From Rhodocyclales bacterium (GTDB taxonomy: Bacteria; Pseudomonadota; Gammaproteobacteria; Burkholderiales; Rhodocyclaceae), in NCBI GenBank assembly GCA_016214145.1, contig JACRPA010000005.1, positions 310,001-374,000 of the forward strand: DNA of 64,000 bases, read 5' to 3'. This document shows, piece by piece, positions 37,353 to 42,731 of this stretch. The position numbers and the translations under genes are program-made. The notes below the pieces were generated by a model. It did no database searches. It was not told where the DNA came from and was given only the letters and a program-made list of their open reading frames with translations. Each line of letters begins with the position of its first letter. Position 1 is the first letter of the stretch.

Positions 37353-37784
37353 TTAAAGCCGGATGAGGCGGGTGCCGGCCAGCCGATCGTGCAGGAACTG
37401 GCGGTCGGGATCGACCAGCGCCCAGAAAATTCCGACTCCGCCGGCAAGCAGGCTCGGCCAGGCCAGCGAATAGCGCAGGAGAATCTGCCCGTTCGTCAAT
37501 GGCGCGCCGTTGGCGGCCACCAGCTTGATTTTCCACGTCTGCATGGCCAGTGTTTGCCCGCTGCGCCTCCAGAGCCATCCGAAATACGCCAGCAGGACAA
37601 TGAATATGTGCAGCCAGAGCAGCGGGCCGGGGACAGCGGCCTTCCAGATCATGCCGATCAGCAGATGAGGCAGGACGAAAGCGATGCTCAATACACCCAG
37701 CAGCAGGAACGATTCATAGAGCATGCCGGCCAGCCGTCGGCGGATGCTGGGCGGCGCGACGACGGCAATAGTCTCGTCCGGCAC
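37353..37784 (-). CDS. RDD-family membrane protein
   Basis: A 143-residue membrane protein with three hydrophobic segments and the RDD features: an Arg-rich start (PPSIRRRLAGMLYESFLLLG), an aspartate-poor second helix and VDPDRQFLHDRLAGTRLI at the end. RDD proteins are inner-membrane proteins of mostly unknown role. It is the last gene of a minus-strand group: sigma factor, DUF3619, DUF3106, RDD, an order typical of Betaproteobacteria. Confidence 0.85.
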   Translation of the reverse strand: MPDETIAVVAPPSIRRRLAGMLYESFLLLGVLSIAFVLPHLLIGMIWKAAVPGPLLWLHIFIVLLAYFGWLWRRSGQTLAMQTWKIKLVAANGAPLTNGQILLRYSLAWPSLLAGGVGIFWALVDPDRQFLHDRLAGTRLIRL

Positions 37785-37790
37785 GACTTA

Positions 37791-38429
37791 CTACTGTGAG
37801 GCCGGGGGGGCGGATGCGGCAGGCGTTGCCTGAGCGGGCGCCTCAGTCGAGGCGGGTGTGTCGGCTTGGGCCGGGGGTGTCGGGATATCCGCCACTGCGG
37901 TGGAGGCGGCTGGCGCGGCCGGCGGAGGGACCGGCAGGGGCTGGGGCGCAGTCGCCGGTAGCTTGGGCGCCAGCCCAAGCGGCTTGGTCGTGCCGGGTTT
38001 GGGTGAAGGTTTGCTGACGGCTTTTTCCGCCAGTCGTTTTTTCTCTTCGTCCGGCAAATCCTTGTATTGCTCCCATTTCAGCTTGATGGCTTCTTTTTTC
38101 TCCGGTGGCGCCTTTTGCAGGGTCTTGTACTGTTCCCTAGCCTGCTTGCGCTGGTCCGGTGTCAGACTGGCCCAGTCCTTCATCTGGCTTTGAACGCGCG
38201 CCTGCTCCTCTGGCTTCATGGAGGGGTAGCGTTTGGCTATGCCGATCCATTTCTTCTTGCGATAAGCCTCCATCTTGTCCCAGTCGCGGGACAGGGGGGA
38301 CAGAATCTGCTTTTGCTCCTGGGGAAGTTCGGCCCACGCCGGCTGCCTTAGTTCGGGGACAACGGCCTGGGCGGGGGAGAGCAGCGAGAATGCGAGGATT
38401 AGTCCTGCGACGAGTGCTCGGAAAGCCAT
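37791..38429 (-). CDS. DUF3106 family exported protein
   Basis: A 212-residue protein with a signal peptide (MAFRALVAGLILAFSLLSPAQA). The mature part has the repeated W-x-x-L-x-P-x-Q/E pattern of DUF3106 (WAELPQEQKQIL, WASLTPDQRKQ, WEQYKDLPDEEKKRL), followed by a Pro/Ala-rich tail of about 75 residues. It is probably periplasmic; the function is unknown. It overlaps the DUF3619 gene by 31 bases and belongs to the sigma-factor cluster. Confidence 0.82.
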   Translation of the reverse strand: MAFRALVAGLILAFSLLSPAQAVVPELRQPAWAELPQEQKQILSPLSRDWDKMEAYRKKKWIGIAKRYPSMKPEEQARVQSQMKDWASLTPDQRKQAREQYKTLQKAPPEKKEAIKLKWEQYKDLPDEEKKRLAEKAVSKPSPKPGTTKPLGLAPKLPATAPQPLPVPPPAAPAASTAVADIPTPPAQADTPASTEAPAQATPAASAPPASQ

Positions 38430-38779
38430 GCCTGGAAGCCCTTGTCGAGGTAGGCGTTGATCGGCAGGTCGTCGGCCAGCAGCGCACTGTCGACTTCCTC
38501 TTGCTCAGCCGCCTTCCGGAAATCGTTCCAGGTGGATACTCCGACGACTCCGATCACCAGACCGACTATTCCTACCAAGGCGCGTGCATGGGGCAGAAAC
38601 AGGTCAGCGGCGATATGGCCCACACCGGCCAGACTCAATTGAGCACCGGCAATTTTTTGATGGGCAAGCGCATTCTGACGGGCTTCAAACAATCTGTCGG
38701 CGGTTTTGCGGTCGACGCCGTCCACCCCCAGGTTAAGGTGGTGGCGGACCTTGTAGGCGAATTCGCGTTCTTTGTTCAT
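38399..38779 (-). CDS. DUF3619 family membrane protein
   Basis: A 126-residue protein with one membrane helix near residues 62-82 (ALVGIVGLVIGVVGVSTW) between a cytoplasmic N-terminus (REFAYKVRHHLNLGVD) and a C-terminal part ending WLSEHSSQD. Such small proteins encoded directly after an ECF-like sigma factor can act as anti-sigma factors; that role is inferred from position and layout. The start ATG overlaps the sigma-factor stop (ATGA). Confidence 0.78.
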   Translation of the reverse strand: MNKEREFAYKVRHHLNLGVDGVDRKTADRLFEARQNALAHQKIAGAQLSLAGVGHIAADLFLPHARALVGIVGLVIGVVGVSTWNDFRKAAEQEEVDSALLADDLPINAYLDKGFQAWLSEHSSQD

Positions 38780-39264
38780 AGCTCGATGCCTCTTGCCTTC
38801 AATGCGGCGGCCAATGAATGAGTTGCCCGGGAGCAATGCGTTTTGACGCTGCCTTCCGAGCACCCCATGGCAGACGCGGTTTCGGCGATATCCATGTCTT
38901 CCCAATAACGCATAAGAAAGGCTTCGCGTTGACGCGGGGGCAGTTTTTTTACTTCTTCTTCAATGATTGCAAGTACTTGCGTTTGCTCCAGACTTGCATG
39001 CGGTGTTGCCGGCGTATATGACCCCTGTTCGACTTCGAAAGTTTCCAGGGGGTCGGCATCGTCGTCGTCGGCGGGTGAAAACGCAGAGAGCAGCGTGGTC
39101 CAAAGAGAACGGACTTTTTGTCGGCGGTAAAAATCGCGGATGGTGTTCTGCAGGATGCGCTGGAACAGCATCGGCAGTTCCCCGGAGGGCTTGTCGCCAT
39201 ATTTTTCCGCAAGCTTGAGCATCGAATCCTGGACGATATCCAGCGCCGCCTCGTCGTCGCGCAC
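38776..39264 (-). CDS. RNA polymerase sigma factor of the ECF/sigma-70 type, start codon unclear
   Basis: The called frame from GTG 39264 gives 162 residues: the rest of region 2 (ALDIVQDSMLKLAEKYGD, LFQRILQNTIRDFYRRQK), an acidic linker, and region 4 (LPPRQREAFLMRYWEDMDIAETASAMGCSEGSVKTHCSRA). However, about 26 further codons upstream, back to 39342, encode TELSDFLASVERRAYKQALFAV, which is good region 2 sequence. That extension has no ATG, GTG or TTG, only ATC (39342) and CTG (39339), and a TGA stands just before it. The true start is therefore unusual or the gene has a point mutation. It heads the DUF3619-DUF3106-RDD cluster. Confidence 0.8.
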   Translation of the reverse strand: MRDDEAALDIVQDSMLKLAEKYGDKPSGELPMLFQRILQNTIRDFYRRQKVRSLWTTLLSAFSPADDDDADPLETFEVEQGSYTPATPHASLEQTQVLAIIEEEVKKLPPRQREAFLMRYWEDMDIAETASAMGCSEGSVKTHCSRATHSLAAALKARGIEL

Positions 39265-39460
39265 CGCGAACAGTGCCTGCTTGTAGGCGCGCCGCTCTAC
39301 GCTGGCGAGAAAATCCGACAGTTCCGTTCTGGCGGCCAGGATTCAGTTTTCCACTCGTTGCGAAGGGATTTTTCCTTCGCGAAATACCTTGACCAACGGG
39401 GGGGGTGTAAGTAAAATCACAGGTTTTTCAGCCGTTTATGGAAGCCTTCTGGGTGCAACA

Positions 39461-42731
<3,271 letters not shown>

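Follow-up and report, generated by a model that had tools for sequence, protein, structure and literature searches.

Within the window, the 64,000-nucleotide stretch of Rhodocyclales DNA analyzed here, an ECF-type sigma factor gene lies on the minus strand (38776-39339), running from a CTG codon to a TGA stop, encoding 187 aa and giving profile matches to NF006550 and Sigma70_r4_2. Three further genes follow downstream, all in the same direction: a DUF3619 gene (38399-38779, minus strand; 126 aa; PF12279, 1.2e-28), whose product is predicted to have one long helix that could span a membrane and is a candidate anti-sigma factor; a DUF3106 protein gene (37791-38429, minus strand, counted from the first ATG of the frame; PF11304, 7.7e-33), whose true start may lie further in; and an RDD family membrane protein gene (37353-37784, minus strand; PF06271, 2e-18). 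The ATG of the DUF3619 gene overlaps the sigma stop codon as ATGA, and its SD-like AAGAGG (38789-38794, minus strand) falls within the end of the sigma gene, with a duplex energy of −5.8 in the window's genome; all SD duplex energies given here were computed against an assumed 16S tail sequence. On the other side, a divergent acetolactate synthase large subunit gene (ilvB/ilvI; 39461-41167, plus strand; NF005409, 1088.9 bits) is preceded by a sigma-70-like promoter, TTGACC-17-TAAAAT (39389-39417, plus strand), which scored 10 of 12 matches in a consensus scan. A stretch of eight consecutive C (39398-39405, minus strand) lies between the divergent genes, within the spacer of this promoter-like site.

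The sigma reading frame opens after an in-frame TGA (39345-39343, minus strand) with ATC (39342-39340) and CTG (39339-39337), continues with GCC GCC AGA ACG GAA CTG TCG GAT TTT, and translates as ILAARTELSDFLASVERRAYKQALFAV. As the initial annotation had observed, the frame offers no ATG, GTG or TTG upstream of GTG 39264, the first such codon after the TGA and residue 26 of the protein when counted from the CTG. A weak SD-like GTGGA (39350-39354, minus strand) stands 10 bases before the CTG, with a duplex energy of −3.3 for the stretch from −20 to −4. This arrangement is exceptional within the genome: the TIGR02937 sigma profile gave 12 matches over its cut-off; in 11 of these a canonical start codon precedes or coincides with the beginning of the match, and the sole match without an ATG, GTG or TTG there is the window's sigma gene. 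The same region also holds a three-codon frame, GTG GAA AAC TGA (39343-39354, minus strand), that ends 3 bases before the CTG; in 15 members of the window's genus its first codon is NTG in 11, ACG in 2 and absent in 2. Termination-reinitiation at the CTG by way of this short frame is conceivable in the genus.

By score, the encoded protein is a member of the NF006550 / PRK09047 RNA polymerase sigma factor family (271.6 bits against an NCBI cut-off of 173, over residues 3-186). Sigma70_r4_2 also scored above its cut-off (62.7 against 25.7 bits), while Sigma70_r2 fell slightly below (23.0 against 24 bits). Position 9 of the NF006550 model aligns with the codon behind the CTG, so that about 7 model positions precede the CTG codon; these extra N-terminal positions perhaps derive from starts called too far upstream. 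The residues between the CTG and GTG 39264 appear to be an integral part of the protein, as the initial annotation had supposed: L7, F10, L11, E15, R16, R17 and A18 (CTG = 1) do not vary among 41 sequences, and the predicted structure begins with a helix of residues 4-26, directly behind the start, with block pLDDT values of 89-95 over residues 1-30 in a model of mean pLDDT 76.6 and pTM 0.55.

We compared the start position across 300 distinct loci from 299 genomes of the window's order, covering 45 family codes and 145 genera. Matches at E <= 1e-30 were obtained in 159 of 199 genomes drawn from the family and 218 of 300 drawn from the order, a subset of which supplied loci. The codon aligned with 39339-39337 is CTG in 232 loci, ATG in 29, TTG in 26, GTG in 8 and another codon in 5, such that NTG occupies this position in 295 of 300 orthologues, and CTG itself occurs there in 33 of the 45 family codes and 104 of the 145 genera. 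This comparison of orthologous gene starts, which had been suggested as a check on the gene, supports a rare start codon. Among the five remaining loci, L208, L209 and L212 have an ATG four codons upstream, and in L328 and L365 a GTG or ATG is displaced by one codon; the former three, lacking NTG at the usual position, belong to a single genus code (g88). In the genus sample, the orthologue was found in 15 of 16 genomes, the one missing it (G006) being 53% complete, and all 15 orthologues have the CTG; the TGA is kept in 13 of the 15, in the arrangement TGA-(ATC or ACC)-CTG. A MAG record titled Bordetella parapertussis (L031), a title that is probably wrong, also carries a gene with 75% identity to the one in the window and with the same CTG. 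On a FastTree tree of 299 rows, the distribution of CTG against all other codons required 16 parsimony changes, compared with 53-62 in 20 label shuffles; scored individually against CTG, ATG accounted for 5 changes, TTG for 12 and GTG for 6.

Might the CTG instead be an internal leucine codon, with translation starting further upstream at some other codon or through read-through or a shift from an upstream frame? Some in-frame canonical codon does lie upstream in 93 of the 232 CTG loci, and 24 of the 232 have a canonical codon within 10 codons; in 139 the frame contains no ATG, GTG or TTG between the CTG and either the preceding stop or the limit of the sequence available. Against such a start, 74 of the 232 loci carry an upstream in-frame stop within 10 codons of the CTG, 71 of them with no canonical start between. 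Across the CTG loci, information per base is close to zero upstream of the CTG except for an SD peak at −12 to −9, at start distance from the CTG, whereas conservation of the first and second codon positions sets in behind it (codon 0 being fixed in this profile by the selection of CTG rows), so that codon periodicity begins at the CTG and is absent upstream. Nor is the codon choice that of an inner leucine: the next two conserved leucines in the same loci prefer CTG less strictly (66 of 215 Leu codons at the first, 37 of 230 at the second), and the start-position codon exchanges with ATG. Two neighboring genes served as controls. The ilvB gene was found in 257 of the 300 loci, divergent in all 257, and the codon aligned with the ATG of the window's ilvB is ATG in 205 and CTG in 1; DUF3619 starts, assigned in 217 of the 300 loci, are ATG in 203, GTG in 13 and TTG in 1. 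The loci with a codon other than CTG at the start position, 68 of 300 within the order and 29 of 54 from elsewhere, count against the CTG-start reading. On balance we regard a start upstream of the CTG as highly unlikely.

The initial annotation had offered two accounts of the missing canonical start: initiation at a rare codon, ATC 39342, under infC-like control, or a start destroyed by mutation, leaving a truncated protein made from GTG 39264. The ATC has in its favor that the sigma frame opens with it and that infC of the window's genome likely starts at the same codon. However, among the CTG orthologues of the order the codon preceding the CTG encodes 17 different residues, or is a stop in 2, and it is ATC in only 20 of 232, while the CTG exchanges with ATG, TTG and GTG. 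Because the preceding codon varies whereas the CTG position is NTG in 295 of 300, CTG 39339 rather than ATC 39342 is indicated as the start, and we consider initiation at ATC very improbable; the broader proposal of a rare start codon held up, and infC-like control survives as a lead to follow. Truncation after a destroyed or mis-sequenced start can appeal to GTG 39264 being the first canonical codon, but the CTG is retained by every one of the 15 genus members that have the gene, which speaks against a sequencing error, and occurs in 104 of 145 genera; since orthologues share it, a local mutation is disfavored. Relatives with an ATG carry it at the CTG position, and starting at GTG 39264 would remove the seven invariant residues and the model helix 4-26. 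We give this alternative practically no credence. Comparison therefore places the start at CTG 39339-39337, a conclusion that we hold as nearly certain and as settled as far as alignment of related genes can settle it. The CTG is presumably read as fMet, with initiator fMet-tRNA.

Outside the order, a class-level draw matched 56 of 274 genomes at 1e-30; two of the 56 came from the window's order and the other 54 were all read. The codon nine before a conserved Phe is CTG in 25 of these homologues, TTG in 3 and another codon in 26 (in L439 and L443 the Phe anchor was not found and the alignment was used instead, L443 being counted as CTG). No canonical start lies within 10 codons upstream in 20 of the 25 CTG homologues, the other 5 having one, and the SD energies of the 25 range from −4.9 to −12.8. 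Several of the non-CTG homologues carry upstream canonical codons or have a CTG 1-3 codons away from the usual place; in L388 the distance is three codons and in L428 one, both behind an SD-like stretch. L404 and L426 show AGGAGA followed by ATA at start distance, and the part of the L404 start region examined holds no canonical start codon; an ATA start is possible in these two. A phylum-level draw matched 25 of 299 genomes at 1e-25, and among the nine loci read from it, CTG occupies the start position in one, L471, behind AAGGAGG; L471 is one of two homologues from a different class. A search for plasmid relatives gave no match at E <= 1e-20. The sampled order and class we take to be Beta- and Gammaproteobacteria, going by named loci and GTDB usage, and we strongly infer that initiation at CUG is ancient and under selection in this ECF sigma family of both groups.

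We then asked how start codon identity relates to the strength of the SD signal. Within the order, the mean sigma SD energy is −5.40 for CTG loci (n = 232), −4.30 for TTG (26), −2.46 for GTG (8) and −0.22 for ATG (29). The correlation between start codon and SD is strong, though it rests on about 5 ATG events, and an independent-pairs test had only six usable pairs. Non-AUG starts are generally associated with stronger SDs, according to one report (PMC5622118). Broadly, the sigma gene combines a poor codon with an SD or has a good codon and lacks the SD, a pattern that fits selection for weak initiation. In the CTG loci, the DUF3619 SD averages −6.50 (n = 213) against −5.33 for the sigma gene and −3.03 for in-gene control windows, but it is the stronger of the two in only 139 of 213 loci; conservation of GG in this SD has two possible causes, because the GG also lies in a conserved sigma glycine codon. 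In the ATG sigma loci (n = 25), the mean sigma SD is −0.09 and the DUF3619 SD −6.46, with DUF3619 stronger in 25 of 25, and the ilvB SD in loci with an ATG sigma gene is −5.59 (10 measurable loci). The window's own sigma SD of −3.3 is weak and has the same value in most of the 15 genus members, from which very low output is predicted in the window's genus.

A structured regulatory RNA at the sigma start was considered and rejected. Rfam gave no match for a regulatory RNA there, the start was not folded in excess (mean z of +0.55, compared with −0.06 and +0.39 for two control windows; 120 of the 232 CTG loci, mononucleotide shuffles), and the genus yielded no convincing consensus structure. A 5' hairpin is visible by eye in part of the genus; it does not appear in the genus consensus fold.

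The DUF3619 gene that follows the sigma gene has the −1 offset (ATGA) in 190 of 217 order orthologues with an assigned start, and outside the order the next gene was found at 51 of 54 loci, with offset −1 in 36 of the 51. For the 25 CTG loci outside the order, this gene encodes 109-137 residues with a hydrophobic stretch recognizable by eye, has offset −1 in 22, and has an SD of −9.3 in 14. All 51 partner proteins scanned match PF12279 (DUF3619); the profile scan gave no anti-sigma family match for these 51, and the 17 families listed for them at E <= 0.1 include no zinc anti-sigma family. The predicted DUF3619 structure contains a single long helix (53-101) that would hold a membrane span, which is only a hint because the model has a pLDDT of 65.9 and a pTM of 0.26. 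Judged by its gene position and form, DUF3619 is probably an anti-sigma factor.

These observations suggest a mechanism. Translation of the sigma factor would start at CUG 39339-39337, and this codon, which is established to make initiation very weak in E. coli, would be expected to do so here; in one study, CUG gives 0.86% of AUG output (PMC11497404, citing its reference 22). DUF3619, the next gene of the operon, has an ATG in an ATGA overlap and its own SD inside the sigma gene end. With a poor CUG on the one and an ATG and its own SD on the other, the sigma factor would therefore be produced at a lower level than its partner and, being scarcer, would remain inactive as long as the partner is functional. 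IF3, a factor that rejects non-canonical start codons, may add to the repression of the CUG, in line with its action on the GTC of Streptomyces sigR. A CUG start acting as a brake that holds the sigma factor below DUF3619, with IF3 as repressor, is in our judgment the best explanation and a reasonably probable one, argued from gene arrangement and from analogy. The main alternative keeps the CTG start as real but lets it set only a low basal rate, the IF3 level or initiation state being no signal and the ratio to the partner not being selected. In its favor, CUG output is low, relatives that start at ATG have dispensed with the SD, so that weak output by itself may be the conserved property, and the start shows no Rfam family, excess folding or convincing consensus structure. 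On the other hand, the sigR precedent couples IF3 repression with the ratio, and IF3 discriminates against non-canonical starts generally, so that some dependence on it is expected. We consider a purely basal role possible but rather unlikely. A further extension of the brake model, which we put forward only tentatively, is that the output of the family serves as a readout of translation initiation (fidelity and IF3 per ribosome) through a CUG kept for most of Beta- and Gammaproteobacterial history; it would then be a translation-gated stress switch, separate in origin from Streptomyces sigR, in which a change from CUG to ATG accompanied by SD loss keeps output low.

CUG is reported to account for 0.024% of bacterial start codons (PMC11497404), and yet it seems to be the normal start of one gene family across dozens of families. 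Start callers limited to ATG, GTG and TTG would be expected to truncate or extend such proteins; wrong start calls are described for sigR and infC (PMC5472188). A sigma factor with a CUG start was not reported in the open-licence literature that we found, which is no proof of absence, and neither DUF3619 nor DUF3106 in connection with a sigma factor was reported there.

Among known systems, a functional relative of the sigma/DUF3619 pair may be SbrI-SbrR of Pseudomonas aeruginosa, an ECF sigma factor with its anti-sigma factor (PMC10418997), which we treat as a lead. The infC gene resembles the sigma gene in having a conserved non-canonical start codon, ATT in E. coli and ATC in Streptomyces, with IF3 autoregulation (PMC5472188). 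Since infC encodes IF3, that loop is autogenous, whereas the sigma factor would be a target and not a regulator. In the window's genome, infC (L415; G000 C3:69130-69636) lies away from the sigma locus and opens after a TGA with ACC ATC GCA; ATC is its likely start, because the part of L415 examined contains no ATG, GTG or TTG, and this in turn makes IF3 autoregulation plausible in this genome. The pcnB gene of the same genome has an in-frame ATG.

The closest precedent found is sigR, seen only in Streptomyces. According to the report describing it (PMC5472188), sigR starts at GTC and is repressed by IF3; changing the GTC to ATG, GTG or TTG raises SigR above RsrA and renders the regulon constitutive; the two genes overlap as ATGA, with the rsrA RBS inside sigR; and the start is GTC in 32 of 34 Streptomyces and GTT in 2, with no evidence of it given there for other actinobacterial genera. 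The locus described here shares with sigR-rsrA an ECF sigma factor, a conserved non-canonical start, an SD before that start, the ATGA overlap and a partner with its own RBS inside the sigma gene. It differs in that the codon is CTG rather than the GTC of Streptomyces, this CTG extending over 33 of the 45 family codes of one order and into further orders, and in that the partner is a DUF3619 protein and not a zinc anti-sigma factor. Repression by IF3 was demonstrated for sigR and would apply to the CTG-start sigma gene by analogy; if it does, a ratio of sigma to anti-sigma factor set by a bad start codon would have evolved more than once.
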